From: Aurantiacibacter odishensis
Lineage (GTDB): Bacteria; Pseudomonadota; Alphaproteobacteria; Sphingomonadales; Sphingomonadaceae
Length of the DNA stretch: 64,000 nucleotides
Direction: 5' to 3'
Assembly (NCBI RefSeq): GCF_003605195.1
Contig: NZ_QYOS01000023.1
Span: forward strand, 62,001 to 126,000
The notes below the pieces were generated by a model that was given only the letters and a program-made list of their open reading frames with translations, was not told the DNA's origin and did no database searches. Below, piece after piece: positions 2,733 through 43,713 of this stretch; the stretch's first letter is position 1; the number at the start of each line of letters is the position of its first letter. Made by a program: the position numbers and the translations under genes.

Positions 2733-3838
2733 TGGCGATTTACGAAGTCAACGGCCAAGGTCTCGTCGCTATCGCCGAGACAAATTTCAGTGCCGAGGGC
2801 ATTTACGAGAGGAAGGACATCCAAAACCTCCTCAAGATGAACATCGAGGTTCTCGATGAGGGCTTGATGGTGATTGCCGAGGAGTTCGGCGACTGGCTCG
2901 ACAGCTCACGCAGGATTGACCTGTTATGCCTCGACACCGACGCCAACCTGGTCGTGGTCGAACTCAAACGCACCGACGACGGCGGTCACATGGAGCTACA
3001 GGCGCTGCGCTATGCGGCCATGGTCGCGAGGATGACGTTCGATCAGCTCGTCGATACCCATGCGCGCTTCAAGAACCCGTTGCAGCCTGACGAAGATGCC
3101 GCTCGCTCCGCCATCCTCGAATTTCTTGGTTGGGCTGCACCTGACGAGGACCAGCTCGCACAAGATGTGCGCATCATTCTCGCCTCTGCGAATTTCGGCA
3201 AGGAACTAACCACGGCGGTCTTGTGGCTCAATGAACGCGGCATCGACATCCGCTGCGTGCGTTTGAAGCCCCATCGCATGCAGGACGGCCCGCTCCTGCT
3301 CGACATCCAGCAGATCATTCCACCGCCGGAGGCCGCTGATTTTCAGACGCAGATCGGCGTGAAGAGCCAGGCAAAGCGCCAAAACAAGACCGAGCGGCAC
3401 ACGATACGCTACAAGTTCTGGGAGGAGCTGCTCAACTACGCGAAGACCAAGACGCCGATCCACGCAAACCGCAAGCCTTCGCAGGACGGGTGGATTTCAG
3501 GTGGCTTGGGCAGATCGGGATTTTCGCTGACTTACTCGGTGCGCCAGACGGACAGTCAGGTGGAGCTATGGATCTCTTTGGGCAAAGGCACTGCTGACAA
3601 GAACATGGCGGCCTTTAAAGCGCTCAAGGCGCAGCGCGAGGCTATCGAGACAAAATTCGGCGATGAGCTGGAATGGATGGATCTTCCAGACAGCGACGGC
3701 TGCCGCATTCGCTACATCGTCGATGGCGGCTGGCGCACACCCAGCGACAAGTGGCCGGAGGTTCATCAGGAGCTGGTGGATGCAATGATCCGACTGAACG
3801 AAGCGGTGCGAGATCCTGTCTTGGCATTAGAGTTGTAA
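2732..3838 (+). CDS. PD-(D/E)XK nuclease-like protein with DUF4268 domain
   Basis: 368 aa. The N-terminal half (about 20-130) has a PD-(D/E)XK nuclease core resembling NucS/EndoMS-type proteins: D63 in RIDLLCLD, E77-x-K79 in VVVELKR, and LQALRYAA (about 89-96), matching the helix Q/Y motif of this fold. The C-terminal part (about 220-368) matches the DUF4268 pattern (WEELLNYAKTKTP, then GWISGGLGRSGFSL). A single-strand or DNA-end nuclease activity is plausible because all three catalytic positions are present. It lies between hsdS and hsdR with 1-bp overlap upstream and 9 bp downstream, so it belongs to the operon. Its substrate and contribution to restriction are unknown. Confidence 0.85.
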   Translation: MAIYEVNGQGLVAIAETNFSAEGIYERKDIQNLLKMNIEVLDEGLMVIAEEFGDWLDSSRRIDLLCLDTDANLVVVELKRTDDGGHMELQALRYAAMVARMTFDQLVDTHARFKNPLQPDEDAARSAILEFLGWAAPDEDQLAQDVRIILASANFGKELTTAVLWLNERGIDIRCVRLKPHRMQDGPLLLDIQQIIPPPEAADFQTQIGVKSQAKRQNKTERHTIRYKFWEELLNYAKTKTPIHANRKPSQDGWISGGLGRSGFSLTYSVRQTDSQVELWISLGKGTADKNMAAFKALKAQREAIETKFGDELEWMDLPDSDGCRIRYIVDGGWRTPSDKWPEVHQELVDAMIRLNEAVRDPVLALEL

Positions 3839-3847
3839 GGGGGCGCC

Positions 3848-6800
3848 GTGAGCCTGCACAAGGAAATCAGCTTCGAGGACGAAATCTGCAACCATCTGGA
3901 TGCGGCTGGTTGGATCTACGAGGAAGGCGCTGCGGCGCGCTATGACCGCGAGCGTGCGCTTTTCCCCGAAGACCTTCGCGACTGGTTGCAGGAGACGCAG
4001 CCGAAGGTGTGGGAGGCGCTTGAGAAAGCGCACGGCGCAGCGGCGCTAGACGTCCTCGGCGATCGCCTGCGCAAACAGCTCGACGATCGCGGCACACTGG
4101 ATGTTCTGCGCCATGGTCTCGAAATGATCGGTGTGCGCGGTCTGGTAAGCCTCGCGCAGTTCGCTCCCGCGTCAGGCATGAACCCCGACATCGTGTCTCG
4201 CTACGAGGCGAACAAGCTGCGGGTCGTGCGCCAGCTCCGTTACTCGCGCTCGAACGAAAAAAGCATCGACATCGGCCTGTTCCTCAACGGCATTCCCGTC
4301 GCGACGACGGAGTTGAAGACCGACTTCACGCAGAGCATCGGCGACGCAATCGACCAGTATAAGTTCGATCGCAATCCGAAGAACGAGCCACTGCTGACCT
4401 TCGCTCGCGGCGCTCTCGTTCACTTCGCCGTGTCTAACCGCGAAGTGATGATGACCACGAAGCTGGAAGGCGGGAAGACGCGCTTCCTGCCGTTCAACCG
4501 GGGCAACAAGGGCGGCGCGGGGAACGTCGCCGATGGTCCCGGCCACCCGACAGCCTATCTTTGGGAAGAGGTCTGGCAGCGCGACAGCTGGCTCGAACTG
4601 ATCGGCCGCTGCATGATCGCGAAGCGCGACAAGAAGAAGCAAATCACCACGGTGATCTTCCCGCGCTATCATCAGCTCGACGCGACGAGGAAGCTGCGTG
4701 AGCAGGTGCGCGCCGAAGGGGCCGGCGGGCGCTTCCTGATCCAGCACAGCGCCGGATCGGGCAAGACCAACTCGATCGCCTGGTCAGCGCACTTCCTTGC
4801 TGACCTGCACGACGAAAACGATCAGAAGGTGTTTTCGAGCGTGATCGTGGTCTCTGACCGCAACGTGATCGATGCACAGCTGCAAGAAGCGTTGTTCGAG
4901 TTCGAGCGCACCAAAGGTGTCGTCGCGACCATCACGAGCGACAGCGGTAGCAAGAGCGCTGCGCTGGCCGATGCTCTCGACGCGGGCAAGAAGATCATCG
5001 TCTGCACCATGCAGACATTCCCGTTTGCCTTGGAGGCTGTGCGTGAACGCGCAGCGACCGATGGCAAGAAGTTCGCCGTGATCGCCGACGAGGCGCACAG
5101 CAGCCAAGCCGGCGAGACCGCCGCGAAGCTCAAGGCTGTGCTGTCGCCCGAAGAACTCGAAGAGCTAGGTGATGGCGGTGAGGTAAGCGCGGAAGACGTT
5201 CTCGCCGCGCAAATGGCCGCGCGTGCAGCCGAGGATGGGGTGACCTACGTTGCTTTCACAGCAACGCCCAAGACGAAGACAATGGAGCTTTTTGGGCGCA
5301 GGCTGAACCCTGACGCACCGGCAAGCGACGACAACAAGCCACGGCCTTTCCACGTCTACTCAATGCGGCAGGCGATCGAGGAAGGCTTCATCCTCGATGT
5401 GCTGAAGAATTACACGCCCTACAAGCTCGCCTTCAAACTCGCCAGTGGCGGGCAGGAATGGGATGAGATGGAAGTCGAGAAGAGCGCGGCAATGAAAGGC
5501 ATAATGCGCTGGGTTCGGCTGCACCCTTACAACATCTCGCAGAAGGTCCAGATTGTGGTCGAGCACTTCCGCGAGAATGTCGCGCCACTGTTGGATGGCA
5601 AGGCGAAGGCGATGGTTGTGCTTGGAAGTCGTTTGGAGGCTGTCAGGTGGCAATTGGCGATCGAAGCCTACATCAAGTCGCAAGGCTATCGCATGCGCAC
5701 CCTCGTGGCGTTTTCGGGCGAGGTGAACGATCCAGACAACAAGGGCGAGAGCTTCACGGAGACGAGCGCGAAGCTGAACCCCAGTCTGCTTGGCCGCGAC
5801 ATTCGCGATGCATTCAACGACGAGGAATGCAAGCTGCTACTCGTCGCAAACAAGTTCCAGACTGGGTTCGACCAACCGCTTCTGTGCGGCATGTATATCG
5901 ATCGTCGGCTGGCGGGTATTCAGGCGGTGCAGACGTTGTCGCGACTGAACCGCTCGCACCCCGGTAAGGACACCACATACATCCTCGACTTCGTGAACAG
6001 CTCCGAGGAAGTGCTGGCGGCCTTCAGGCAGTATTACGAGACCGCAGAGATCGAGGCCGAGACCGACCCGAACCTTATCTTCGATCTGCGCCAGAAGCTC
6101 GATGCTTCGGGTCACTACGACCAGTTCGAGATCGACCGGCTGGTAGCAGTCGAACTTGATCCCAATGCGACACAGGGGCAGCTAATCGGCGCGATCGAAC
6201 CCATCGCGCAGCGCATGCTGACGCAGTTTAGTGAGGCCAAGGATCAATACAAGGCGGCTATAGACGCAAAGGACAAGACTGCCGCGAACGAGGCCAAGGA
6301 AGAGATGGACGTGCTGCTTCAGGTGCGCGGCGACATGGCCACCTTCACACGCATCTATGCCTTCCTGTCCCAGATTTTCGACTACGGCAGCACGGAGATC
6401 GAGAAGCGCTACATGTTTTACAAGCGCCTTACCCCGTTGTTGCAGTTCGGACGTGAGCGAGATGGCGTGGACTTGTCAGGAGTTCGGCTTACGCACCACA
6501 ACCTCAAGAACGAGGGCGCTCGCACGCTACAGGTCGGTGATGATCGTCCCGCGCTTCCACCAATAACGGGGGTTGGCTCTGGAGCGGTGCAGGAGAAGGA
6601 AAAGACGCTGCTCGCAGAGATCATCGCCAAGGTGAACGACCTGTTCGACGGTGACCTAACCGATGACGATCAGCTCATCTATGTGAACAACGTGATCAAG
6701 GGAAAGCTGCTTGAGTCAGAAGAGCTGCGCTCTCAAGCGCGGAACAACAGCAAGACACAATTTGCCAGTTCGCCGACCCTTTCGAGTGCCATCCTCGACG

Positions 6801-6943
6801 CGATCATCGATGCCATGGCCGCGCACGAAATCATGAGTTCGCAAGCACTGAATTCGGCGAAGGTGCGCGAGGGACTGCGCGATGTGCTGTTAGGGCCAGG
6901 GCAGCTCTATGAGGAGCTGCGGAAGGACATCGAGCAGGGGTAA
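3848..6943 (+). CDS. hsdR: Type I restriction endonuclease subunit R
   Basis: 1031 aa with a GTG start after a GTAAGGGGG stretch. The N-terminal RecB-like nuclease domain contains SIDIGLFLNG followed by TELK (D141, E155-x-K157). The ATP-dependent translocase then shows Walker A AGSGKT (about 303-307), the DEAH box ADEAHSS (about 414), motif III FTATPK, and the second RecA domain with NKFQTGFDQP and QTLSRLNR. The C-terminal helical region is of the HsdM/HsdS-docking type. Length is typical. HsdR translocates DNA and cuts at a distance from unmethylated sites in complex with HsdM and HsdS. It is the last gene of the operon. Confidence 0.96.
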   Translation: MSLHKEISFEDEICNHLDAAGWIYEEGAAARYDRERALFPEDLRDWLQETQPKVWEALEKAHGAAALDVLGDRLRKQLDDRGTLDVLRHGLEMIGVRGLVSLAQFAPASGMNPDIVSRYEANKLRVVRQLRYSRSNEKSIDIGLFLNGIPVATTELKTDFTQSIGDAIDQYKFDRNPKNEPLLTFARGALVHFAVSNREVMMTTKLEGGKTRFLPFNRGNKGGAGNVADGPGHPTAYLWEEVWQRDSWLELIGRCMIAKRDKKKQITTVIFPRYHQLDATRKLREQVRAEGAGGRFLIQHSAGSGKTNSIAWSAHFLADLHDENDQKVFSSVIVVSDRNVIDAQLQEALFEFERTKGVVATITSDSGSKSAALADALDAGKKIIVCTMQTFPFALEAVRERAATDGKKFAVIADEAHSSQAGETAAKLKAVLSPEELEELGDGGEVSAEDVLAAQMAARAAEDGVTYVAFTATPKTKTMELFGRRLNPDAPASDDNKPRPFHVYSMRQAIEEGFILDVLKNYTPYKLAFKLASGGQEWDEMEVEKSAAMKGIMRWVRLHPYNISQKVQIVVEHFRENVAPLLDGKAKAMVVLGSRLEAVRWQLAIEAYIKSQGYRMRTLVAFSGEVNDPDNKGESFTETSAKLNPSLLGRDIRDAFNDEECKLLLVANKFQTGFDQPLLCGMYIDRRLAGIQAVQTLSRLNRSHPGKDTTYILDFVNSSEEVLAAFRQYYETAEIEAETDPNLIFDLRQKLDASGHYDQFEIDRLVAVELDPNATQGQLIGAIEPIAQRMLTQFSEAKDQYKAAIDAKDKTAANEAKEEMDVLLQVRGDMATFTRIYAFLSQIFDYGSTEIEKRYMFYKRLTPLLQFGRERDGVDLSGVRLTHHNLKNEGARTLQVGDDRPALPPITGVGSGAVQEKEKTLLAEIIAKVNDLFDGDLTDDDQLIYVNNVIKGKLLESEELRSQARNNSKTQFASSPTLSSAILDAIIDAMAAHEIMSSQALNSAKVREGLRDVLLGPGQLYEELRKDIEQG

Positions 6944-7203
6944 CGTAGCGTCCACGCTGGTGACGAAGGTCAAAAGCAGAAGTCCTACAAATTTCCAGCT
7001 CTGTTGACCCTGATGGTGCCAATCAGCCGATATGAGAAGGTTTCCTGCCATCCACTGGCTTCCCGCATGCTGCATCCATGTTGCACGGAGTCGCCGTGCT
7101 GCCACGAGAATCGGCGGGAATCAGCGGAATAGCGAAGAACGCCGAAGAACACGCGGGAACGTGCGTCACCATCGCACAAGCTATTGTTTTATTTGGTGAA
7201 AGC
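6944..7203. other. Intergenic junction between RM operon and tRNA-Gln
   Basis: 260 bp without a convincing gene. Minus-strand open frames exist here but resemble nothing and carry no start signals. The stretch 7100-7180 contains short direct repeats (GAAGAAC twice, CGGGAA twice) and an imperfect CACG/CGTG inverted repeat. Its position, directly 3' of a tRNA gene and at the end of an accessory operon, is where the attachment site of an integrated island is usually found. Confidence 0.5.
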
Positions 7204-7277
7204 TGGATGCCCCGCAAGGATTCGAACCTTGATTGACGGAGTCAGAGTCCGCTCTCTTACCGTTAGAGGACGGGGCA
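7204..7277 (-). tRNA. tRNA-Gln (anticodon CTG)
   Basis: On the minus strand the sequence folds as a complete cloverleaf: 7-bp acceptor stem TGCCCCG/CGGGGCA, D arm CTCT...AGAG, anticodon stem GCGGA/TCCGT with loop CTCTGAC (anticodon CTG), and T arm CAAGG-TTCGAAT-CCTTG. A genomic CCA follows at 7206-7204, preceded by discriminator base U. The gene is transcribed leftwards, so its 3' end faces the restriction operon, consistent with use as an integration site. Confidence 0.93.
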
Positions 7278-7352
7278 CCAGAGGTGGGCGCCATTAACGC
7301 CGCCTCCGGATTCGGTCAACCCCAGTCTCGGCTGAAGTCTGAGCTCGCCTGT

Positions 7353-7769
7353 CTAGTTTACGGCAGGCCAGACGCGGGTGCGGCAGAACAGGGTGACGCA
7401 GCCCTTCACCTCCAGCGAGCCGTTGGCGCGGCGGCGCACTTCGGTGCGGTAGGTGTTGCCATCCTCGGGATTGTAGACCTCCCCGCGCCATGCGCCATCA
7501 TCCCAGCGCAGGTTCTGGAGGATGGTGATGCCGAGGATCGGGCGGTCGCGCAGGGCGGGGTTGTCGTTGTGCCGGTCGCGGTTGGTCTCGCCGGGCTTGT
7601 TCCTGATGATCCGCGTGATCTCTCCGCAGCGGGCATTGCCGCAGGGGGCGACGGTGATCTCGGTATAGCCGCCCGAATCAACGTAGGTGCCGTCAATGTT
7701 GCTCTGCGCGGCGGCGGGAGCGGTAAGCAGCGCGATTGCGGCGAAGGGCGCGAGGTTTTTCAGCATCAT
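7353..7769 (-). CDS. DUF2147 secreted protein
   Basis: 138 aa. A cleavable signal peptide (MMLKNLAPFAAIALLTAPAAA) precedes a small beta-rich domain with the DUF2147 pattern: DGTYVDSGGYTEITVAPCGNA, ILQNLRWDDGAWRGEVYNPEDG, and KGCVTLFCRTRVW at the C-terminus. Four cysteines in the mature part could form two disulfides in the periplasm. DUF2147 proteins are periplasmic; their function is not established. The gene lies downstream of and codirectional with the radical SAM gene, separated by 50 bp that include a hairpin, so it may have its own promoter. Confidence 0.88.
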   Translation of the reverse strand: MMLKNLAPFAAIALLTAPAAAQSNIDGTYVDSGGYTEITVAPCGNARCGEITRIIRNKPGETNRDRHNDNPALRDRPILGITILQNLRWDDGAWRGEVYNPEDGNTYRTEVRRRANGSLEVKGCVTLFCRTRVWPAVN

Positions 7770-7801
7770 GCTCCTCTATACGCACGAGCGCGGTGAATGG
7801 C

Positions 7802-7825
7802 GCCTGAGTCCGTTGGCGCTCAGGC
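7802..7825 (-). terminator. Hairpin at the end of the radical SAM gene
   Basis: GCCTGAG (7802-7808) and CTCAGGC (7819-7825) form a 7-bp stem that includes the stop codon of the radical SAM gene. There is no clear T-tract, so termination strength is uncertain. Confidence 0.35.
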
Positions 7826-8806
7826 AGAGCAGCTTGCCCCGCCCAGCACGCAGAACCGCGCGCAATGCGGATGGTTCAATGGCACTTCGCGGTCCGCCTC
7901 GGCTACGGTATTCCCAAGATCGAAGCCGGGATCGTAGGGCAGCAGCGTGCAGGCGACCACGCGCGGGGCCGGTTCGCCCTTGCGGTGGACGACCATGCGC
8001 TGCGTGGCGCACATCACGTCGTCCGGCGACTTGCCGAGGATATCCCAGCAAGCGGTGGTGATCTCGGCAATGTCAGCCTCGTCGTCCATTTCCGGAAACA
8101 GCACCAGCCGTGCGGGATCGAAAGTGTCGATGGCGATGCCCTCGGCCTCGAACAGCAGGCGATAGGCGTTTCGCGCCTGCTCCTGCGTTTCTCCCGCAAG
8201 GCTTCTCCCGGCAGCAGCGAGCGAGAAGCCATTGGCCGAAAGCCAGCGCATCCCCTCCAGCATGGGTGCCCAGCTGCTTGGCCCCCGCTCTGCCTCGTGC
8301 ACGGCCTTGGTGTGATGGTCGATGGAAACGCGGATGGTCAGCTTGTCGCCATAGGTTTCGCGTAGGCGCAGCAGTTCCGCCTCGTGCCGCCGCATCGGTT
8401 TCATCGCGTTGGACAGCACCAACACTTCGTGGCCGCGCGACAGGGCCTGCTCGATCATGGCGATGATCTCGGGGTTCATGAACGGCTCCCCGCCGGTGAA
8501 GCCGATTTCGCGCACGCCCCTGTCCGCAATCTCGTCGAGGAAGCGCGCCACGTCGCTGGCTGCCATGTAGACGAGCGCATCGTTCGTGGGGCTGCTCTCG
8601 ATGTAGCAGTTGGCACAGGCGAGGTTGCACAGCGTGCCGGTGGCGAACCACAGCGTGTCGAGCCGCGTCAGGCCCACACTGGCGCGCGGCTCCCCCTTCG
8701 CCGTCACCTGCGGATCGGTGAACTTGGCGGGCGGCAGGCGTTCGCCATCCACGGTGAAGGGCGAGGCGCCCGCTGGCGTATTTCTCGTCTTCGCACGCGA
8801 TGCCAT
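7820..8806 (-). CDS. Radical SAM protein with C-terminal Cys-rich region
   Basis: 328 aa from the ATG at 8806, which overlaps the stop of the upstream flavoprotein gene (TGATG). That start is preferred over an upstream in-frame one inside the neighbour. The radical SAM CxxxCxxC motif is C60-NLA-C64-AN-C67, and GGEPFMNPE is the SAM-contacting GGE motif. The last 90 residues contain five cysteines (MCATQ, VVACTL, HPHC, RFC, GASC), as in SPASM-like auxiliary cluster domains. It is co-transcribed with the flavin oxidoreductase and divergent from arsM. It is not recognisable to me as ArsS or ArsL; a role in organoarsenical synthesis is inferred only from context. Confidence 0.85.
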   Translation of the reverse strand: MASRAKTRNTPAGASPFTVDGERLPPAKFTDPQVTAKGEPRASVGLTRLDTLWFATGTLCNLACANCYIESSPTNDALVYMAASDVARFLDEIADRGVREIGFTGGEPFMNPEIIAMIEQALSRGHEVLVLSNAMKPMRRHEAELLRLRETYGDKLTIRVSIDHHTKAVHEAERGPSSWAPMLEGMRWLSANGFSLAAAGRSLAGETQEQARNAYRLLFEAEGIAIDTFDPARLVLFPEMDDEADIAEITTACWDILGKSPDDVMCATQRMVVHRKGEPAPRVVACTLLPYDPGFDLGNTVAEADREVPLNHPHCARFCVLGGASCSA

Positions 8807-10221
8807 CAGAACGCTCGCCGCATCTTCGCCAGCAGAGCGACCCATTTCTTCGGCCACTTGCCGAACACAGTCGGCTCCCACGCCTTGAACGCGGCCGCCT
8901 TCACGATTTCCGCGCGGGTCGGATAGGAAATCACCGCGCCGCCCACGTCGAAAGTGCCGCTCTTGCCGGTAATCATCTGGGTGAACGGCAGCAGCAATTC
9001 GCCCGCGTTCACACCGCAGATGGAGGCGCCCACCACTTTCTTGCCCTTCAGCATCACCTTGAGGTGGCCCTTGTCCAGTCCTTCCGCAATGGCGCGCTCG
9101 TTGTGGTCGAAACCTTCGGTGACGACGGTCAGCTTGTCGCCAAATGCCTCGCGCGCTTCGCTCTCGGTCATGCCGATCTGGGCGATTTCAGGTTCGGTGT
9201 AGGTGCACCAGGGCAGCGCGCGCCAGTCCACCTTGGCGGGCAGGCCAAGCGCGATTTCCAGCACCACGTTCGATCCTTCGTAGCCCGATACGTGCGTCAG
9301 GCGCGGCCCCTCGCGGCAATCGCCGATGGCATAGATGTGCTTGAGGTTCGTGCGCCGGCGTTCGTCCACCTTGATGCCGTTGCGGCCCAGTTCGATGCCC
9401 AGTTCCTCCAGCCCGCACCCCGTGGTGCGCGCCTTGCGCCCCACGGCGACCAGCAGGTGCGAACCCGTGATACCCTCGCCGCTATCGGTGGTGACGGTGA
9501 TTGCCCTCTCTCCGCCGGAGACCTTCTCAGCCTTGCCGTCGACGAAGCGCACGCCCTCGGCTTCCATCACGGCTTTTACCACGGCCACGCTGTCGCGGTC
9601 GTCGCGCTTCATCAGTTCGCCCGGCTCGATCACGGTCACTTCGCTGCCGAGCCGACAGAACGCCTGCGCCATTTCCATGCCGATCACGCCGCCACCGATG
9701 ATGACGAGGTGCTCCGGCTGCTCGGTCAGGTCGAACAGGTTCTCGTTGGTGAGGTAGGGCACCTCCCCTAGCCCTTCCACGTCCGGCACCAGCGGGCCGG
9801 AGCCCGTGGCAATCACGATGCGCGGCGCGGTGAGCGTGCGGCCGTCGACCTCGACGCTCTTCGGCCCGGTCAGCTTCGCCCAGCCCAGAATGACTTCGCA
9901 GCCCATCTCCTCGAACCGTTCGGGCGAGTCGTGCGGCTCGATATGGGCAATCGCATCGTGGATGTGCCTGTGAACGCTGCCCCACTCCACGATCGGCGGG
10001 GCAAGCTGCACGCCTGCACGCTTCTCCTCGCGCGCTTCAGCGGCGCGCCGGGCGGCGGCGATCAGCGCCTTGGAGGGGACGCAGCCGTTGTTCAGGCACT
10101 CCCCGCCCATCTTGTGCCCTTCGATGAGGGCAGTCTTTAGGCCGAATAGCGCGCAGCCGCCCGCCGCGGTAAGCCCTGCCGCCCCGCCGCCGATCACGAT
10201 CACGTCATGCGTGTAATCCAA
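8806..10221 (-). CDS. FAD-dependent pyridine nucleotide-disulfide oxidoreductase, mercuric-reductase-like
   Basis: About 471 aa using a TTG start at 10221, which sits 7 nt after the Shine-Dalgarno-like AAGGGAA; a GTG at 10236 is possible but would contain that signal. Class I flavoprotein disulfide reductase: FAD-binding IGGGAAGL, redox disulfide C42-LNNG-C47 in GGECLNNGCVPSK, NAD(P)H-binding IIGGGVIGMEMA, second FAD motif YAIGDC, and a C-terminal dimerisation domain. The usual catalytic HPT is replaced by YPT, as in mercuric reductases, but the C-terminal vicinal Cys pair and N-terminal HMA domain of MerA are absent. It is therefore a reductase of unknown substrate, in one operon with the radical SAM gene. 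Confidence 0.88.
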   Translation of the reverse strand: MDYTHDVIVIGGGAAGLTAAGGCALFGLKTALIEGHKMGGECLNNGCVPSKALIAAARRAAEAREEKRAGVQLAPPIVEWGSVHRHIHDAIAHIEPHDSPERFEEMGCEVILGWAKLTGPKSVEVDGRTLTAPRIVIATGSGPLVPDVEGLGEVPYLTNENLFDLTEQPEHLVIIGGGVIGMEMAQAFCRLGSEVTVIEPGELMKRDDRDSVAVVKAVMEAEGVRFVDGKAEKVSGGERAITVTTDSGEGITGSHLLVAVGRKARTTGCGLEELGIELGRNGIKVDERRRTNLKHIYAIGDCREGPRLTHVSGYEGSNVVLEIALGLPAKVDWRALPWCTYTEPEIAQIGMTESEAREAFGDKLTVVTEGFDHNERAIAEGLDKGHLKVMLKGKKVVGASICGVNAGELLLPFTQMITGKSGTFDVGGAVISYPTRAEIVKAAAFKAWEPTVFGKWPKKWVALLAKMRRAF

Positions 10222-10310
10222 GAAAATTCCCTTCACCTATCGAATTCAGGATGGCCGACGAAAGTGAACTCGTCCATGCATCCTTTCGGTCCCCAAGGAG
10301 ATTCAGTTTC
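10222..10310. promoter_or_regulatory. Divergent control region between flavoprotein operon and arsM
   Basis: 89 bp separates the two translation starts. The arsM side carries a good ribosome-binding site AAGGAG (10295-10300), 10 nt before ATG 10311. I see no obvious ArsR-type operator and no adjacent arsR gene. Confidence 0.5.
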
Positions 10311-11360
10311 ATGAACCTTGAAAATTCGCAGAACTACTACGGCAAGGTTTTGGAAGGTTCGTCCGACCTGCGCACCGATGCGTGCTGCACTTTCGAGATG
10401 CCCTCGCCCAGCGTGCGGGAAGCGCTGCGCAACGTGCACGAGGAAGTAAAGGCGCGCTATTACGGCTGCGGACTGGTGGTGCCGCAGGCGCTGGAAGGAT
10501 GCCGGGTGCTCGATCTCGGCTCGGGCAGCGGGCAGGACGCCTATTTGCTGGCGCAGCTGGTCGGCCCGAAAGGCTCCGTCATCGGGGTGGATGCAACGCC
10601 CGAACAACTGGCCGTCGCCAATGCCCATAAGGACTGGCATGCGGAGCGCTTCGGCTATGCCAACGTCGAATTCGTGGAAGGCGATATCGAGAAGCTCGAT
10701 CAGCTGGGGCTGGAGCCGGCAAGCTTCGACGTGATCGTCTCCAACTGTGTCATCAACCTCGTCGCCGACAAGGAGGCCGTCTTCCGCGCCGCGCACCGGC
10801 TCCTGAAGCCGGGCGGCGAAATCTATTTCTCCGACGTCTATGCCGACCGCCGCGTGCCTGCGCACCTGCTGGACGATCCCGTCCTTCACGGCGAATGCCT
10901 ATCGGGCGCGCTCTACTGGGGCGATTTCGACCGAATCGCCAGGGCCGCAGGCTTTGCCGATCCGCGCCTCGTTACCGATCGCCCGCTGGCCATCAACGAT
11001 GCCGAAGCGGCGGAAAAGCTGGCGGGCATCAATTTCGTTTCCGCCACCTACCGCCTGTTCAAGCTGGATGGGCTGGAGCCGCAGTGCGAGGATTACGGGC
11101 AGGCGGTGATCTACCAGGGCACCGTGCCCGAGCACGAGAAGGTCTTCGAACTCGACGCTCATCACGCGATCGAGGCGGGCCGTGCCTTCCCGGTGTGCGG
11201 CAACACCTGGATGATGCTGTGCGATACCCGCTTCGCGCCGCATTTCGACTTCATCGGCAACTTCTCGAAGCACTTCGGCGTCTTTCCGGGCTGCGGTTCG
11301 GCCGTGCCTTTCGGCCAGTCCGACGCGAACCCGGCCAAGTCGGAAGCGCCCTGTTGCTGA
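10311..11360 (+). CDS. arsM: Arsenite S-adenosylmethyltransferase (ArsM family)
   Basis: 349 aa from ATG 10311, chosen over the ATG at 10251 because of AAGGAG 10 nt upstream and because the conserved start NYYGKVL follows directly. The SAM-dependent methyltransferase core has VLDLGSGSGQDAYLL (motif I) and GVDATPEQL. Cysteines in the family's three metalloid-binding positions are present: C53 (YYGCG), C146 (SNCVINL) and C196 (GECLSGALYW); an additional C25-C26 pair and a terminal Cys-Cys may also bind As(III). Known ArsM enzymes methylate arsenite stepwise. Here the gene starts an apparent two-gene operon with an SDR, in a locus with sugar-transferase-like genes rather than with arsenic efflux genes. 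Confidence 0.92.
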   Translation: MNLENSQNYYGKVLEGSSDLRTDACCTFEMPSPSVREALRNVHEEVKARYYGCGLVVPQALEGCRVLDLGSGSGQDAYLLAQLVGPKGSVIGVDATPEQLAVANAHKDWHAERFGYANVEFVEGDIEKLDQLGLEPASFDVIVSNCVINLVADKEAVFRAAHRLLKPGGEIYFSDVYADRRVPAHLLDDPVLHGECLSGALYWGDFDRIARAAGFADPRLVTDRPLAINDAEAAEKLAGINFVSATYRLFKLDGLEPQCEDYGQAVIYQGTVPEHEKVFELDAHHAIEAGRAFPVCGNTWMMLCDTRFAPHFDFIGNFSKHFGVFPGCGSAVPFGQSDANPAKSEAPCC

Positions 11361-12388
11361 AAGTCCTCGTCACCGGAGCCGCCGGCCTGATCGGCGGCGA
11401 AGTCTGCGCACGTCTTTCGGCGCGCGGTGCGCGGGTGACGGCCATGGTGCGCAAGACGCGGGAAGTGCGCGGCAACGACGGCGAAACTGTCGACGGCATC
11501 GAAATAGTCATCGGCGATGTGACAGAGCCTATGATGGGCCTCGACCCGCAAGCGCACGATATCGATCTCGTCATCCACTGTGCAGCCAGCCTTGAATTCG
11601 ATGCCCCACGCGAAGTGCTGGCGACGGTAAATATCGAGGGGACGCGCAACGCGCTGGACTTCGCCAGGTCCGCTGGTGCGGGTTTCCTCCACGTCAGCAC
11701 CGCCTACGTCAGCGGCACCCGCGATGGCGCAATTGTTGAGGGGCCAGTTCCGGAAGGAACGCAGTTCACCAACAATTACGAGGAAAGCAAGGCGCTGGCC
11801 GAGGCTGTGGTGGCAGCCAGCGGCGTGCCCTTCGCCGTGGCGCGTCCCTCCATCGTGCTGGGCGACTTCGAAAGCGGTGCGATCCGCGATTTCCCCTCGC
11901 TCTGCAATGTCTTTCGCCTGATGGCGCGGGGCAAGGTCGGCACCTTTCCTGCGCGCGAGTCCTCAACGCTGAACCTCGTGCCCCTGTGCCACGTGGCGGA
12001 GGGTATCGCGCTGCTGGCAGAGCGGTTCGATGCGGCGCAGGAGGGCTATTTCCATCTTGTAACGAACAGCCCGACGCCCGCCACCGAACTCGCGCACGGC
12101 GTATCCCGCGTGGACCATTTCCCCGACCCGCAAGTGGTCGACCCTGCCGCATTCGATCCGCAGGCATTGCGCCCGGCGGAGAGGATGCTGCTGGAGCGGA
12201 TGATGGCGACTTTCGGCGCCTATTTCACCCGCGATCCCCGGTTCGACGACAGCCAGTTCCGCGCCGTGACGGGATTGGAATGCCCGGTGACGGACAGCGC
12301 CTGGCTCGACCGGCTGATTGCCTACGGGATTGCGAGGGGATACCTCCCTAGCGAACGTGGGGGTAGTGGCGCTCAAGCCGCTGCCTAG
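11354..12388 (+). CDS. Extended SDR NAD(P)-dependent oxidoreductase/epimerase
   Basis: 344 aa. TTG at 11354, overlapping the arsM stop by 7 bp, is the best start because the Rossmann motif VTGAAGLIGG follows within a few residues; the frame is open further upstream inside arsM, but that part is not coding-like. Conserved features: HCAAS, NIEGTRNAL, STAYVSG and the catalytic YEESK. The segment order resembles the thioester-reductase/male-sterility (NAD_binding_4) branch, so substrate reduction of an acyl or sugar intermediate is possible. Coupled translation with arsM suggests that it acts on, or supplies precursor to, the methylated arsenical. It converges on and overlaps the next gene by 41 bp. 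Confidence 0.86.
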   Translation: MLKVLVTGAAGLIGGEVCARLSARGARVTAMVRKTREVRGNDGETVDGIEIVIGDVTEPMMGLDPQAHDIDLVIHCAASLEFDAPREVLATVNIEGTRNALDFARSAGAGFLHVSTAYVSGTRDGAIVEGPVPEGTQFTNNYEESKALAEAVVAASGVPFAVARPSIVLGDFESGAIRDFPSLCNVFRLMARGKVGTFPARESSTLNLVPLCHVAEGIALLAERFDAAQEGYFHLVTNSPTPATELAHGVSRVDHFPDPQVVDPAAFDPQALRPAERMLLERMMATFGAYFTRDPRFDDSQFRAVTGLECPVTDSAWLDRLIAYGIARGYLPSERGGSGAQAAA

Positions 12389-13070
12389 CGCCCATGGCCC
12401 AGAGGAAACCGACCTTCAGGTAGATCCAGTTGGCCTTCAAGCCGCCCCACTCGGCAATACGCCTGTCGGATGTCTCGATAGTGCGCGGCACCAGCCGCAC
12501 CCGGCCAAGTTCGGTCATGCGGATGCACAGGTCCGCTTCCTCCATCACCTTGGCCGCCGGGTCACAGCCGCCGCTGGCGATGAAATCGGCGCGGCGGAAG
12601 AACATGGCGTGGTCGCCGAACAGCAGCCGCCCTCCCTTGAAGAACAGCGAGGGGCGGAAAAGGAGCGGCGCGTACCAGGTCTTGGCCCAGTTGTGCGCCG
12701 TGGTGCCCCAGCGGGTCTTCCGGCCCCGTATGATCGGGGTGAACCCGGCGAGCGAGGTCTTCGGGTCCGCCAGCACCTGCTCGATCACGGTCACCATGTC
12801 GATCGGCGGCACAGTGTCGGCGTGCAGCACGCACACGTTCGCCGCGCTGGCCGCCGCCACGCCGGTGTTGATCTGCACGCCGCGGCCCCGCTCGCTCTCG
12901 ATCACGCGCCATCCAGCCTCGCGCGCCAGCGAAACGGTGGCGTCTTCGCTGCCGCCATCCACCAGCAGCACTTCGGCAGGTTGCTGGTCGAGCCGGGCGA
13001 CGTTGGCAATCAGCGCGGGCAGCGCCTTTTCCTCGTCGAGCGTCGGGATCAGCAGGCAGGTGTCGCTCAC
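12348..13070 (-). CDS. GT2-type glycosyltransferase (TIGR04283-like, arsenosugar-associated)
   Basis: About 240 aa with a GTG start at 13070 in a GTGA overlap with the preceding gene; a TTG at 13088 is an alternative. GT-A fold: LLIPTLDEEKALPALI at the N-terminus, LLVDGGSEDAT, and the metal-binding LHADT, with RRADFIASGG and VMEEADLCIRM later on. This is the pattern of the short 'transferase 2' family repeatedly found next to radical SAM/selenoprotein and arsenosugar genes. Together with the next gene it forms a minus-strand pair facing arsM-SDR tail to tail. The sugar donor and acceptor are unknown. Confidence 0.87.
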   Translation of the reverse strand: MSDTCLLIPTLDEEKALPALIANVARLDQQPAEVLLVDGGSEDATVSLAREAGWRVIESERGRGVQINTGVAAASAANVCVLHADTVPPIDMVTVIEQVLADPKTSLAGFTPIIRGRKTRWGTTAHNWAKTWYAPLLFRPSLFFKGGRLLFGDHAMFFRRADFIASGGCDPAAKVMEEADLCIRMTELGRVRLVPRTIETSDRRIAEWGGLKANWIYLKVGFLWAMGARQRLERHYPHVR

Positions 13071-13648
13071 GCGGTCAGTTCCGGCCAACGGGCAAGGTCT
13101 TCCGGACGGTCACAGTCGTCGAGTTCGTCGAGCAAGCTGTAGGCGAGGCCAAGGTCGTCCAGCCTGCGCTTCGTTTCTGCCAGCACCGAGTCGGTGCCCC
13201 ACGGCATGTCCTGCCAAAGTTGCGGGACGGCCTGCGTGAAGCCGAGCAAGTAATAGCCACCGTCGGTGGCCGGTCCGATCACCACCGGCACCTCTTCCAG
13301 CGCCCGCGCGGCAGCGCGGAGGTGATCTGCCGTGAGTGCCGGAATGTCCGCGCCCAGCAGGATTGCCGGGGGTGCAACTCGCGCCAGCCGCGTCCCGAGG
13401 TCGCCCTCGCCCTGCTCGACTAGCAGCACATCTTCGCCCAGCCATTCGGCGAAGTGCGCGGCACTCGCCCCGGTGTGATGGACAGCGAACGGCAGGCCGC
13501 TTTCGCGCATCGTCGCCAGCGTGCGCTCCACCAGCCGCCGGTGGACCCGCGCCGCGCCCGCATCGCCGAGCAGCGGGGCCAGCCGCGTCTTCGCCTCTCC
13601 GGCAGTCGGATATCTGGCGAACAGGGCAATCGTCGGTGTTACATTCAT
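13067..13648 (-). CDS. CofC/GT-like transferase (DUF2064, TIGR04282-like, arsenosugar-associated)
   Basis: 193 aa from ATG 13648, which immediately precedes the conserved opening IALFARYPTAGEAKTRLAPLLG; upstream in-frame codons look non-coding. It resembles small nucleotidyl/glycosyl transferases of the DUF2064 type: GDLGTRLA, LLGADIPAL and IGPATDGGYYLLGF are the substrate-binding loops of this family. It is coupled to the GT2 gene by a 4-bp overlap. In other genomes the pair accompanies arsenosugar or selenodomain radical SAM loci (family knowledge), which supports reading 7820-13648 as one functional locus. Confidence 0.87.
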   Translation of the reverse strand: MNVTPTIALFARYPTAGEAKTRLAPLLGDAGAARVHRRLVERTLATMRESGLPFAVHHTGASAAHFAEWLGEDVLLVEQGEGDLGTRLARVAPPAILLGADIPALTADHLRAAARALEEVPVVIGPATDGGYYLLGFTQAVPQLWQDMPWGTDSVLAETKRRLDDLGLAYSLLDELDDCDRPEDLARWPELTA

Positions 13649-13700
13649 GCCCGTCGCTGTAACCGCTGGACGCGCCCGAAGCGATGGCCCAATGTGACGC

Positions 13701-14510
13701 ATGGCTTCCCGTCTTGCGAAAATTGCAGGCATCGCCGTGGCAGGTGCCGCGGTCGGCACCCTGATGCTGGCAGAGCGCGCCCGTCCGCTGCGCCAGCGCA
13801 CGCGCAAGGAATTGCCGCGCCTTGCCCGCAACGCCGCGATGGGCGCTGCTTGCCAGGCCGTGATCATGGCCAGCGAAGCGCCGATCACGGAGGCCATCGC
13901 GCAGGAGAACAGGCGGCAGCGACGCGGCCTCCAGCACCTGATCGGCGGGTGGCCGGGGCGCTTCGCCGCCGTTCTGCTGATGGATTACACCTATTACCTG
14001 TGGCACGTCGCCACCCACAAGGTGCCGTTGCTGTGGCGCTTCCACCGCGTGCACCACGTCGATCCCGATCTCGACATGAGCACAGCGGTGCGCTTCCACG
14101 CTGCCGACATGCTGCTGTCCACCCCGATGCGGATGCTGCAGGTCCGCCTGTCGGGCGCGGACCCCGTCACGCACAATATCTGGCGCGGGTTCTTCTTGGG
14201 CTCGGTGCTGTTCCACCATTCCAACCTGCGCCTGCCCAAAGGCGTGGACGAGGCACTCAGCACCGTCGTCACGACACCCCGGATGCACGGCATCCACCAC
14301 AGCCAGAGGCTGGACGAGATGGATTCCAACTGGACCTCCGGCTTCAGTTTCTGGGACAGGCTGCACGGCACTTTCCGCGCCGACGTGCCGCAGCACGCCA
14401 TCACCATCGGCGTGGACGACCCGGCGGCGGAGCGCGACATCGCCCTGCTGCCCGCACTGGAAGCGCCCTTCGCGCTTACCCACTACCGCCACACGCCGGG
14501 AGCGCACTGA
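13701..14510 (+). CDS. Sterol desaturase/fatty acid hydroxylase superfamily protein
   Basis: 269 aa membrane di-iron enzyme. Histidine boxes: HVATH (102-106), HRVHH (115-119) and HGIHH (about 196-200), plus FHHSN in between. Hydrophobic segments lie near residues 5-22, 45-60 and 85-102 and around the middle boxes. The family hydroxylates or desaturates lipid chains or sterol/carotenoid rings. It is divergent from the transferase pair by 52 bp, so membership of the arsenic locus is only positional. An ordinary lipid or hopanoid role is equally possible. Confidence 0.87.
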   Translation: MASRLAKIAGIAVAGAAVGTLMLAERARPLRQRTRKELPRLARNAAMGAACQAVIMASEAPITEAIAQENRRQRRGLQHLIGGWPGRFAAVLLMDYTYYLWHVATHKVPLLWRFHRVHHVDPDLDMSTAVRFHAADMLLSTPMRMLQVRLSGADPVTHNIWRGFFLGSVLFHHSNLRLPKGVDEALSTVVTTPRMHGIHHSQRLDEMDSNWTSGFSFWDRLHGTFRADVPQHAITIGVDDPAAERDIALLPALEAPFALTHYRHTPGAH

Positions 14511-14607
14511 AACCCTCCCGACTTGTGCCCCTTCCCCGGTTGGTATAGCCTGTAACCAGGTTCCGCCCGTTTGGGTGGGTGATAGAATAGATGAAAGCAA
14601 GCAAGTT

Positions 14608-15801
14608 ATGGCGGATATCAATCCGCCGGACCGACGCGAAAAGGCCAGGAAAACGGCGCCGCAGGGGCAAGCAGGGCGCCAGAACAATCGAAACGGCCAG
14701 CACAGCAGTTCCGGCGATCAGAACGGCAGGACGCAGCGGGACACCCGCAACTGGCGCCGCCCCCCACACAAGAGCTACAAGCAGGCCTACGCCGCGATTG
14801 ACCTTGGCACCAACAACTGCCGCCTGCTGATCGCGCGCCCCAATGACGAGAACTTCGTGGTGATCGATGCGTTCAGCCGCGTGGTGCGGCTGGGCGAAGG
14901 GCTGGCGCAGACCGGCAAGCTGTCAGACCACGCGATGGACCGCGCTCTGGGCGCGCTCAAGGTATGTTCCGACAAGCTGCGCAAGCGCAACGTCCACCTC
15001 GCCCGCTCCGTCGCCACAGAGGCCTGCCGCCGCGCATCGAACGGAGAGGCATTCATAGAGCGCGTGCGCGAGGAAACCGGTATCGTGCTCGATATCATCA
15101 GCGCGCAGGAAGAAGCGCGGCTGGCCGTGCTGGGGTGTCACATCCTGCTGGAGGACGGCATCGGCCCTGCGATCATTTTCGATATCGGCGGCGGCTCCAC
15201 CGAACTGGTGCTGATAGAACCCGGCGCACCCGTGCCGCGCATTCTCGACTGGCAGAGCGTGCCGTGGGGCGTGGTCTCGCTGTCGGAAACGGTGGGAGAA
15301 GAACCCGCCGACGACGAAGGCCGCCTTGCCCGGTATGCGAAGATGAAACAGCTCGTTCTGGATAGCTTCGCCGAGTTCGCCGAACGTATCGAGGCGCACA
15401 AGGCGCCGGACCAGCGCCTGCTGGGCACCAGCGGCACGGTAACGACGCTGGCGAGCGTGCACCTTGGCCTGCCGCAATACGATCGCAAGGCGGTGGACGG
15501 ACTGATCGTGCCGTCCGATTCCATGCGCGATATCTCGCAGCGGCTTTCGGGCATGTCGCCCGAGGAACGCAGCCAGCTCGATTGCATCGGTTCCGACAGG
15601 GCCGACCTTGTGGTTGCCGGGTGCGCAATCCTGGAAGCGATCCTGGAGATATGGCCCGCAGACCGGCTGGGCGTTGCCGATCGCGGCATTCGCGAAGGCA
15701 TCCTTCGCAGCCTTATGGCCGCCGATGCAGAGGGCATGGAAACACAGGCCGCCCTTCGCCGCCTGAAACAGGGCCAGGGAAAGGCGGGAGCGACGAACTG
15801 A
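14608..15801 (+). CDS. Ppx/GppA exopolyphosphatase/pppGpp phosphatase family protein
   Basis: 397 aa from ATG 14608; a GTG at 14575 would add 11 residues. The first 55 residues are basic and Gln/Asn-rich with no family match, then the ASKHA-fold domain starts: [15 protein letters not shown] (phosphate 1) and [16 protein letters not shown] (phosphate 2), with [12 protein letters not shown] further on. It is short relative to E. coli Ppx (no C-terminal HD part), like the alphaproteobacterial form. It hydrolyses polyphosphate and/or pppGpp. Its stop overlaps the rlmE start (TGATG), so the two are co-expressed. Confidence 0.9.
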
Positions 15802-16466
15802 TGGCGCGGGCAGGACAGGATTCGCAGCGCCGCCTGAAAAGCGGAAAGAAGCGTAAGGCCAGCTCGCAGAGGTGGCTGGAGCGGCAGTTGAACGACCCTT
15901 ACGTCAAGCGCGCGAAGGACGAGGATTATCGCAGCCGCGCGGCTTTCAAGCTGATCGAGCTGGACGACAGGTTCGGCCTGGTGAAAGGCGCGAAACGCGT
16001 GGTCGACCTCGGCATTGCGCCGGGCGGCTGGGCGCAGGTCGTGCGCCGCCGCGCGCCCAGGGCCGCGATTGTCGGCATCGATCTGCTGGAAACCGATCCG
16101 ATCGAAGGCGTGACCATCTTCCAGATGGACTTCATGGACGATGCTGCGCCCGCCGCCCTTACCGAGGCGCTGGATGGCGCGCCCGACCTCGTCATGTCGG
16201 ACATGGCGGCCAACACCGTGGGCCACAAGCAGACCGACCACCTGCGCACCATGGCGCTGGTGGAAGCCGCTGCATGGTTCGCGGTGGAAGTGCTGGAAAA
16301 GGGCGGTGCCTTCATTGCGAAGGGCTTTGCCGGGGGGACGGACCGCGAATTGCTCGACCTGCTGAAGAAGCACTTCAGGAGCGTGAAGCACGCCAAGCCA
16401 CCCGCCAGCCGCAAGGGCTCAAGCGAGTGGTACGTCGTGGCGCAGGATTTCAAGGGGCGAGACTAG
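15801..16466 (+). CDS. rlmE: 23S rRNA (uridine-2552-2'-O)-methyltransferase
   Basis: 221 aa, ATG at 15801 overlapping the upstream stop. FtsJ/RrmJ fold: [15 protein letters not shown] (SAM motif I), [20 protein letters not shown] and [11 protein letters not shown]; the catalytic K-D-K-E tetrad is represented by the N-terminal Lys region, SDMA, AKGF and SEWY. A basic N-terminus ([12 protein letters not shown]) fits rRNA binding. It methylates U2552 in the A-loop of 23S rRNA during 50S maturation. Confidence 0.95.
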
Positions 16467-16504
16467 CCGCCGACTCCGCGGCGGCCAATCCATAAACCTC
16501 AGTT

Positions 16505-17179
16505 CTAGTTGGGACTGCCAGTGTTGGTGGCTGCCGCATCTTCGGGCACGGGCTGCTCTGCACCCATTGCACCAGCCGCCTCGTTGGAATCGGCAGGCGC
16601 GCCTTCGGTCTGGCCGGGGCCTTCGCCTGCGCCATCCAGCTCGCCTTCGACATCGACCGCAGCGACGGGTTCGGGCAGCGCCGGGCCACCGCCGTATTCA
16701 CGCATGTAGAGAACGACGTTGGCGCGGTCTTCCGCGCTGGAAAGACCGGCAAAGCTCATCTTCGTGCCGTTGGCGAAAGCGCGGGGGCTGGCGAGCCAGG
16801 CATCCATCGCGGCGTAGTCCCAGGTGCCGCCCTTGTCGGCGAGGGCGGAGGAGTAGGCGAATCCCGGCGCGTGTTCACCGATGCCGGTGCCCAGCACGCC
16901 GTAGAGGTTCGGGCCGATGCCGTTCGCGCCGCCCTGCTCGATCGTGTGGCAGGCGGTGCACTTCGCGAACACGGCTTCACCGGCAGCGGCAGAGCCATTG
17001 GCCAGCAGGGTGGCGAAATCGGGGCCGCTATCGGCGGCAGCACCTTCCTCGGGAGCTTCGATCACGTAGCCGAATTCCTCGACTTCGCTGGCGAACAGCT
17101 TGTCGCTGACCGAGTTGAGGCCCAAGGCCACGATACCGCTGGCAAGGACCCAGCCGAAGATGGTGTTGGTGTTGCTCAT
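16505..17179 (-). CDS. Membrane-anchored c-type cytochrome
   Basis: 224 aa. An uncleaved N-terminal anchor (IFGWVLASGIVALGL) is followed by one class I cytochrome c domain: haem attachment C74-TA-C77-H78 and the axial Met in GTKMSF (M141). A Pro/Ala/Glu-rich low-complexity tail of about 65 residues follows the haem domain. This is the layout of CycM/cytochrome c552-type proteins that carry electrons between the bc1 complex and terminal oxidases in alphaproteobacteria. It is divergent from pheA, a neighbourhood familiar in this class. Maturation would require the Ccm system, not seen here. Confidence 0.91.
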   Translation of the reverse strand: MSNTNTIFGWVLASGIVALGLNSVSDKLFASEVEEFGYVIEAPEEGAAADSGPDFATLLANGSAAAGEAVFAKCTACHTIEQGGANGIGPNLYGVLGTGIGEHAPGFAYSSALADKGGTWDYAAMDAWLASPRAFANGTKMSFAGLSSAEDRANVVLYMREYGGGPALPEPVAAVDVEGELDGAGEGPGQTEGAPADSNEAAGAMGAEQPVPEDAAATNTGSPN

Positions 17180-17298
17180 GTCGATTATTTCTGCCGGTTA
17201 GAATCTATGCGGTCGCGCTCTAGTGCCCATGGCCGCGCTTCGCAAGGGCGTATGCGCGCTTGTCGGCGGCGCACGGCCTCGCTACCGACTTTCGCCCT

Positions 17299-18207
17299 AT
17301 GGATTCGTATCCCGCACCCGCTCTCGCCATGGTCGAGTCAATGCACGCCGCCGCCGCGCAGGACCCGGCGCGCGCCATCGCCTTCCAGGGGGCGCCCGGA
17401 GCCAACTCGCACCGCGCCATCAACGAATGGGACCCGGATGCCCTCCCGCTCCCCTGCTTCAGCTTCGCCGCCGCGATAGAGGCGGTGGAGGAAGGGCGCG
17501 CGTCCTGTGCGATGATCCCGATCGAGAATTCGCAGGCAGGGCGCGTGGCGGACATCCACTTCCTGCTGCCCGAGAGCGAGCTGTGCATCGTGGGCGAGCA
17601 CTTCCTGTCGATCGAGCATTCGCTGATGGCGTTGAATGACAAGGGACCGTTCAAGGGCGCGTACAGCCATCCCCACGCGCTCAGCCAGTCGCGCCAGTAC
17701 CTGAAAGAGCGGGGCATCGTTCCGCTAAGCCATGCCGACACTGCCGGGGCCGCCGCGCATGTGGCCGAACTTGGCGATCCGGAATTTGCCGCCATCGCGC
17801 CCAACCTTGCGGCCGATCTCTACGGCCTCAAGATCGTGGAGGAGAACGTGGAGGACGCTGCCGACAACACCACGCGCTTCGTGGTGCTGGCGCGCGAGGC
17901 GCTCGACCCGGCAACGCTGGCGGGGCAGGAAACCATGACCACCTTCGTGTTCGAGGTGAAGAACATCCCCGCTGCGCTTTACAAGGCGATGGGCGGCTTC
18001 GCCACCAACGGGGTCAACATGACGAAGCTGGAAAGCTACCAGAAGGGCGCCAGCTTCGCTGCCACCATGTTCTACGCCGATATCATCGGCGCTCCCACAG
18101 CATACGGGGGCGATCCGGCCGTGGACCGCGCGCTGGAGGAACTGGCGTTCCACTGCAAGGGCGTGCGCATGTTCGGCACCTATCCCCTCGCCCGCCAAAG
18201 GGGCTGA
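17299..18207 (+). CDS. pheA: Prephenate dehydratase
   Basis: 302 aa from ATG 17299; a TTG at 17260 is less likely. The periplasmic-binding-like catalytic domain opens with IAFQGAPGANSHRA and contains MIPIENSQAGRV and the signature NTTRF with the catalytic Thr. The C-terminal ACT domain (FEVKNIPAALYKAMGGFATNGVN, then the ESYQKG-type motif) gives phenylalanine feedback control. It has no chorismate mutase domain, so it is the monofunctional enzyme converting prephenate to phenylpyruvate. It is divergent from the cytochrome c gene by 119 bp. Confidence 0.95.
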   Translation: MDSYPAPALAMVESMHAAAAQDPARAIAFQGAPGANSHRAINEWDPDALPLPCFSFAAAIEAVEEGRASCAMIPIENSQAGRVADIHFLLPESELCIVGEHFLSIEHSLMALNDKGPFKGAYSHPHALSQSRQYLKERGIVPLSHADTAGAAAHVAELGDPEFAAIAPNLAADLYGLKIVEENVEDAADNTTRFVVLAREALDPATLAGQETMTTFVFEVKNIPAALYKAMGGFATNGVNMTKLESYQKGASFAATMFYADIIGAPTAYGGDPAVDRALEELAFHCKGVRMFGTYPLARQRG

Positions 18208-18214
18208 TCGCCCG

Positions 18215-19780: not shown

Positions 19781-19859
19781 GCGCATCCTTTTGCGGTTTT
19801 GTGGGCAGCCTTGCAATGGAGGCGTTGCGTCACCTGCCCGCCCGTGTATCCAAGCTGTT

Positions 19860-43660: not shown

Positions 43661-43713
43661 CTGCCGAGAGATAGGCAGCACCAGCGTTAAGACTATTTTG
43701 CTCAGTCCGCGTT

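Follow-up and report, generated by a model that had tools for sequence, protein, structure and literature searches.

Arsenosugar synthesis in Synechocystis is described as pairing the arsenite methyltransferase ArsM with ArsS, a radical S-adenosylmethionine (SAM) protein of family TIGR04167 (available portions of PMC8552651 and PMC12159101). A radical SAM enzyme is also paired with ArsM in the arsinothricin pathway (arsQML), where ArsL acts on inorganic arsenite ahead of ArsM: arsL alone yields AST-OH from As(III), and later methylation requires arsM (available portion of PMC8552651). Here we analyse a seven-gene locus at 7820–14510 of a 64,000-nucleotide stretch of Aurantiacibacter odishensis DNA (the window; C19:62001–126000 of a 3.19 Mb genome), in which an ArsM gene is accompanied by a radical SAM gene that encodes neither ArsS nor ArsL. 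An initial annotation had listed the genes as a radical SAM enzyme, a MerA-like flavoprotein, ArsM, a short-chain dehydrogenase/reductase (SDR), two transferases and a sterol-desaturase-type enzyme, and all are present. The locus is a conserved cassette, the core of which is formed by the radical SAM protein and a TIGR04283-type glycosyltransferase. It probably makes an arsenosugar-type compound, possibly lipid-linked, with a different radical SAM family in the role of ArsS.

A cassette with a two-gene core

The radical SAM protein (7820–8806, minus strand) has 328 amino acids (aa) and a CX3CX2C motif at 60/64/67; of 149 same-family genomes, 43 encode it. Its neighbourhood was analysed in 40 other genomes (G and L denote genomes and loci in our numbering; G022 and G037 were left out, and G000 is the window itself). 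Genes were called with a home-made codon-score script, which missed the radical SAM gene in L074, L075, L118, L142, L150, L161 and L164, where BLAST matches were used instead. In the 40 family loci, the SDR recurs in 35, the TIGR04283 and TIGR04282 genes in 34 each, the flavoprotein in 32, ArsM in 23 and the FA_hydroxylase gene in 16; the flavoprotein count includes L074 (5 kb off, on the opposite side) and L068 (1.8 kb off), whereas 30 copies are no more than 1 kb from the radical SAM gene. Gene order and orientation are largely constant, L061 being rearranged. Of the outer neighbours, ppx is seen again in just 3 of the 40 loci (one of them a match of only 28% identity), and rlmE and cytochrome c in 2 each. 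Because the set recurs while the outer neighbours do not, we regard the locus as a cassette. DUF2147 (7353–7769), present in only 6 of 40 loci, is excluded from it.

These counts bear on the simplest explanation, ordinary arsenic methylation, in which ArsM and the flavoprotein would detoxify and the remaining genes would be unrelated neighbours. The ArsM is genuine by sequence; however, its cassette neighbours are better conserved than ArsM itself, and the outer genes are the ones that fail to recur. We consider this explanation highly improbable.

Within the 149 family genomes, the sets carrying the radical SAM gene and TIGR04283 are identical (43 with both, 106 with neither); counted by genus, each occurs in 27 of 96. 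The association extends to a sample of 241 genomes of the class, where TIGR04283 is present in 70 of the 71 genomes with the radical SAM gene versus 23 of the 170 others. TIGR04283 was counted here at E ≤ 1e-30 (93 genomes), 22 genomes matching only between 1e-15 and 1e-30 being dropped, and the Fisher p-values for co-occurrence ignore kinship between genomes. The sole radical SAM genome without TIGR04283 is G309, and G212, of the same genus, has it. Proximity is not general: the two genes lie within 10 kb of each other in only 11 of the 70 class genomes, and many are on separate contigs (for example in G165, G203 and G214). The fixed core of the cassette is the radical SAM protein and TIGR04283, not ArsM, on which the initial annotation had centred the locus.

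ArsM is the variable part

ArsM (10311–11360, plus strand; an alternative ATG start lies upstream at 10251) has cysteines at 53, 146 and 196 when counted from 10311, exactly as the initial annotation had placed them. These residues, which we take to be the arsenic-binding cysteines of ArsM, are invariant in 12 of 12 aligned ArsMs (the alignment itself is numbered from the start at 10251). The ArsM profile matches structure 5EVJ (E 8.8e-120), and the protein is below the cut-off of NF008823 (175 bits versus 263). ArsM of this type occurs in 27 of 149 family genomes, all 27 of which carry the radical SAM gene, a co-occurrence that supports an arsenic-related function for the cassette.

ArsM nevertheless comes and goes. 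Its presence switches at least 11 times across a tree built from 41 radical SAM proteins (a quick tree in which 15 of the 38 inner branches have low support, ArsM being counted wherever in the genome it lies), and genomes of the same genus differ in it (G006/G100, G033/G116, G054/G130, G059/G131 and G023/G108). The gap between the flavoprotein and the SDR measures 1133–1305 bases in 19 loci with ArsM versus 74–165 bases in 12 without, so that ArsM occupies or vacates a single fixed position. The ArsM genes of G001 and G095 are located elsewhere in the genome. The SDR (11354–12388, plus strand; NAD_binding_4/epimerase type), whose TTG start is uncertain and overlaps the end of ArsM, is retained where ArsM is missing. 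ArsM is thus an optional module, present in 23 of the 40 family loci; among genomes that carry the radical SAM gene, it is detected in 27 of 43 in the family and 23 of 71 in the class. An ArsM-centred reading is rejected.

Gene partners in common with ArsS

In the ArsS operon of L210, TIGR04282, a flavoprotein–VTT fusion, ArsS, 5′-methylthioadenosine phosphorylase (MTAP) and TIGR04283 are followed by a metallophosphoesterase homologue (on the other strand) and homologues of PhnD, PhnE and PhnC. This operon belongs to one alphaproteobacterial genus, and each of the partners also adjoins the present radical SAM gene in some genome. The window has TIGR04282, TIGR04283 and the flavoprotein, which is 39% identical to its L210 counterpart. 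By BLAST, 16 of the 40 family loci have MTAP at 3 to 1218 bases from the radical SAM gene (gene-call clustering gives 15 loci); the L044 copy scores 283 bits against TIGR01694, above the cut-off of 275. In the window genome, MTAP is on another contig (G000:C20:91261–92118). Of the 43 family genomes that carry the radical SAM gene, 42 have MTAP.

A wider set of relatives comprised the best 80 of at least 583 radical SAM matches. A metallophosphoesterase homologue adjoins the radical SAM gene in five of these 80 loci (L118, L127, L142, L144 and L161). The L210 homologue matches no Pfam family and is named from a 52% identical Roseomonas relative. That relative is encoded on plasmid p546-1 of Roseomonas haemaphysalidis (L266), where a radical SAM gene (59% identical, annotated merely as ‘radical SAM protein’) is accompanied by TIGR04282, DUF547, PhnD, PhnE, PhnC and the metallophosphoesterase; PhnD, PhnE, PhnC and the metallophosphoesterase are 63, 57, 50 and 52% identical to their L210 counterparts, respectively. 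On the same plasmid, a second radical SAM protein of 459 aa overlaps the start of the first (L266, 4601–6924).

MTAP accompanies the TIGR04283–TIGR04282 pair beside the radical SAM gene in L122, and L134 (labelled Rhodospirillaceae) has the order TIGR04283–TIGR04282–MTAP–radical SAM. In L173, radical SAM, ArsM, a VTT protein and the flavoprotein face a peroxidase-related protein, FA_hydroxylase, TIGR04282 and TIGR04283; in L212, ArsM faces TIGR04282–radical SAM (35% identical)–TIGR04283. L173 and L212 are separate radical SAM–ArsM clusters in two further families, and both they and the overlap of cassette partners with ArsS-operon partners support the arsenic reading. A Marinobacter plasmid relative, 36% identical and lying where no gene is annotated, lacks any annotated arsenic or cassette neighbour within 8 kb.

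Shorter ArsS neighbourhoods, reaching 1.5 kb to either side, were read in 30 loci, the best-scoring of 77 genomes and many of them from one family. Of these, 20 contain an ArsM-like match, 4 the flavoprotein and 2 MTAP, whereas TIGR04282 and TIGR04283 appear in 1 each. The cassette resembles the ArsS pathway in pairing a radical SAM gene with TIGR04282, TIGR04283, a MerA-like flavoprotein and MTAP (as in L210), and in its association with ArsM. Unlike the ArsS pathway, it has an SDR and an FA_hydroxylase enzyme in addition, and its ArsM is of another subfamily (93 bits against NF038099, cut-off 400). The ArsS neighbourhoods L210 and L211 hold two further genes, one acyl-CoA dehydrogenase-like and one of 350 aa.

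The radical SAM protein compared with ArsS and ArsL

The radical SAM protein is 77–91% identical to its nearest named relatives, from Aurantiacibacter strains and uncultured Sphingomonadaceae. In a hidden Markov model comparison, it scores 59.7 bits against TIGR04167, over residues 48–200 only, versus a cut-off of 300; true ArsS identity is therefore rejected, as the initial annotation had anticipated. That annotation had also described the locus as lacking a canonical ArsS, and this holds genome-wide: TIGR04167 never exceeds its cut-off in any of the 149 family genomes, the window genome included. ArsS is over the cut-off in 2 of 241 class genomes (counted at E ≤ 1e-40) versus 77 of 269 in a sample of the phylum. 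The two class genomes have TIGR04283, lack the radical SAM gene described here, and are not among the genomes matching ArsM.

The two radical SAM families nonetheless match in their radical SAM domain. A profile comparison of the present family with 14 ArsS proteins gave 98.3% over 173 columns at 24% identity, versus 2.5% for a control consisting of one family of six radical SAM sequences, presumably PA0069-like. Conserved residues in common run through the radical SAM domain, among them an RG pair (174–175) outside the cluster motif, and a C-terminal H-C...G-x-S-C end is also common to both. The ArsS end itself, HCxxCTAGxGSSC, is not found; the window protein has HCARFCVLGGASC, which looks similar. 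Six cysteines beyond CX3CX2C (253, 266, 286, 315, 319 and 326), one more than first counted, lie in the C-terminal part in a layout other than that of ArsS and are invariant in 20 aligned sequences.

Structure adds little. The AlphaFold model has a mean predicted local distance difference test score of 75 with weak N- and C-terminal ends, and the Foldseek matches listed, headed by BlsE, are other types of radical SAM enzyme; the model was therefore set aside as proof of an ArsS fold. A search of the PDB with the radical SAM profile returned distant radical SAM enzymes only.

ArsL offers a different precedent. By analogy with it, the radical SAM protein might act first on inorganic arsenite, by adenosyl or 3-amino-3-carboxypropyl transfer, with ArsM methylating the product and MTAP recycling methylthioadenosine. 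Such a scheme accounts for loci without ArsM and for MTAP adjoining the radical SAM gene, and has in its favour the formation of AST-OH by arsL alone. However, ArsL is a protein of 428 aa with its motif at 194–201 and only three conserved cysteines, and belongs to an ars operon with ArsQ for which sugar-transfer genes are not named (available portion of PMC8552651), whereas the window protein is shorter, has its motif at 60–67 and six more cysteines; ArsL identity is rejected on length, motif position and cysteine count. Moreover, TIGR04282/TIGR04283 sugar transfer has no clear role in an ArsL-type product, and MTAP is found in ArsS operons too. We regard an ArsL-like first step as quite unlikely.

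Evidence weighing against an arsenosugar function

Several observations weigh against assigning the radical SAM protein the role of ArsS. Its nearest named family is Rv1681 (NF049973) rather than ArsS (97 bits versus 60 bits). This is its best named profile match, over residues 52–226; nevertheless, the score is far below the cut-off of 380 and the C-terminal third of the window protein is uncovered. ArsS is only the fifth-ranked match for the L212 homologue. The C-terminal halves of the radical SAM protein and ArsS, compared alone by hhalign, score 1.1%, which is not significant, and C-terminal homology to ArsS is therefore reduced to a suggestive motif. The long ArsS neighbourhoods that share so many partners with the cassette come from a single genus (L210 and L211). 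Of the 106 family genomes that lack the radical SAM gene, 66 have MTAP as well, so that co-occurrence of MTAP alone is weak evidence. In 4 of 40 family loci (L064, L065, L076 and L077), the radical SAM gene has no cassette partner within 9 kb.

The distribution of ArsM also counts here. Of the 43 radical SAM genomes of the family, 16 lack a matching ArsM; only one of these 16 (G099) has a clear ArsM by NF008823, and that another ArsM. The initial annotation had named occurrence mainly apart from arsM as telling against its reading; the radical SAM gene accompanies ArsM in most of its family genomes, whereas no ArsM was detected in 48 of 71 radical SAM genomes of the class. The class count used NF008823 at E ≤ 1e-25 and may be too low, because at most 10 first-look candidates were scored per genome. 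Finally, 21 class genomes have TIGR04283 but neither the radical SAM gene nor ArsS, so the TIGR04283 family is not arsenic-specific.

Together, these points raise the question of whether the core serves arsenic at all. The radical SAM protein, MTAP, TIGR04282 and TIGR04283 might instead build another 5′-modified deoxyribose glycoconjugate, some lineages having gained ArsM for unrelated reasons. That ArsM goes undetected in most radical SAM genomes of the class would then be expected, as would two further kinds of locus. In 13 loci (L121, L123, L126, L136, L141, L143, L151, L152, L156, L157, L159, L163 and L167, read by eye), nearly all labelled with Rhodobacteraceae genera, a lone radical SAM gene lies beside zwf, pgl and pgi, that is, sugar-phosphate genes. 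TIGR04283 and TIGR04282 also occur without either radical SAM enzyme, and an APH-type kinase is nearby in 8 of 17 TIGR04283 loci of such genomes, compared with 3 of 41 loci where the genome carries the radical SAM gene. Because of the ArsM-less class genomes, the lone Rhodobacteraceae loci and TIGR04283 without either radical SAM enzyme, we retain some probability for a non-arsenic substrate. However, among the 149 family genomes, every one with ArsM of this type also has the radical SAM gene, this gene clusters with ArsM in three families, and its partners overlap those of ArsS operons down to the Phn-type ABC (ATP-binding cassette) genes. On balance, we judge a non-arsenic core unlikely.

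In L193, L194, L196, L199, L200, L201, L203 and L208, from genomes with neither the radical SAM gene nor ArsS, TIGR04283–TIGR04282 stands with the APH-type kinase. This arrangement is perhaps a second use of the pair.

A proposed arsenosugar pathway

With an arsenosugar-type product as the favoured reading, we infer each chemical step from what was observed directly, namely gene content, conservation, co-occurrence and the partners common with ArsS operons. ArsM, if present, would convert arsenite to dimethylarsenite; genomes without ArsM would take up methylarsenicals from outside. The radical SAM protein would transfer the 5′-deoxyadenosyl group of SAM to the methylated arsenic, as ArsS does in cyanobacteria. 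MTAP would then remove adenine, giving 5-arsinoyl-5-deoxyribose 1-phosphate.

The sugar phosphate would be activated by the TIGR04282 protein (13067–13648, minus strand; DUF2064; 180 bits, above the cut-off of 134), a proposed nucleotidyltransferase. Its profile finds structure 3CGX at E 2e-42 and then guanylyltransferases; the solved relatives are thus a putative nucleotide-diphospho-sugar transferase and guanylyltransferases of the CofC type. The activated sugar would be passed to a glycerol or lipid acceptor by the TIGR04283-type enzyme (12348–13070, minus strand), a glycosyltransferase of family GT2, the solved relatives of which include lipid-phosphate glycosyltransferases in a profile search. 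It matches TIGR04283 over nearly the full model with 166 bits, below the cut-off of 182, as is also the case in 39 of the 43 matching family genomes.

The flavoprotein (8806–10236, minus strand) may hold arsenic or a thiol carrier in the reduced state. It is a flavin adenine dinucleotide (FAD) pyridine-nucleotide disulfide oxidoreductase, MerA/lipoamide-dehydrogenase-like, with the redox CxxxxC motif (GECLNNGC) present; its best NCBIfam match (PRK06370.1-3) is below cut-off, and plain MerA identity is rejected by its TIGR02053 score (311 bits versus 454). Finally, the SDR and the accessory FA_hydroxylase enzyme of the sterol desaturase superfamily (13701–14510, plus strand) may tailor the product. 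The order of the steps after adenosylation is likewise a proposal. Phn-type transporters might import methylarsenicals for carriers without ArsM, as suggested by their position beside both kinds of operon.

Among the 18 called genes of 86–19786, the stretch searched with Pfam (2205–2732 gave no match), there is no ars efflux gene or arsR, in agreement with the initial annotation. That annotation had favoured a complex organoarsenical over simple detoxification, which remains the probable reading of the gene context, although the core is not centred on ArsM as it had supposed.

For the questions of which organisms make arsenosugars and arsenolipids, and which enzymes act after ArsS, the cassette supplies candidate enzymes in order, each with a proposed step. 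More broadly, we put forward the tentative idea that this unnamed second radical SAM family, which occurs in 71 of the 241 class genomes sampled, is an arsenic-adenosylating equivalent of ArsS that completes arsenosugar or arsenolipid synthesis with MTAP, TIGR04282 and TIGR04283, ArsM-less lineages importing methylarsenicals, some of them through a Phn-type ABC transporter. If so, possible arsenosugar makers would extend far into bacteria without ArsS, and heterotrophic bacteria could account for much of arsenosugar production. Among the matches listed in a search of titles and abstract beginnings on arsenosugars, arsenolipids and ArsS, in which subscription journals are thinly covered, this family is not mentioned in arsenic metabolism. 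Same-genus pairs with and without ArsM (G006/G100, G033/G116 and G059/G131) are natural material for a direct test.

Other features of the window

Immediately to the left of the cassette is a type I restriction-modification island (86–6943) comprising HsdS, HsdR and the end of HsdM; HsdS and HsdR are separated by a DUF4268/NucS-like nuclease and by a protein of 175 aa that matches no Pfam family. On the other side, a tryptophan halogenase family protein (PF04820, E 8e-173) is encoded at 18215–19786. Further along, two tandem open reading frames of 220 and 223 aa (42998–44418) have starts that are similar by eye.

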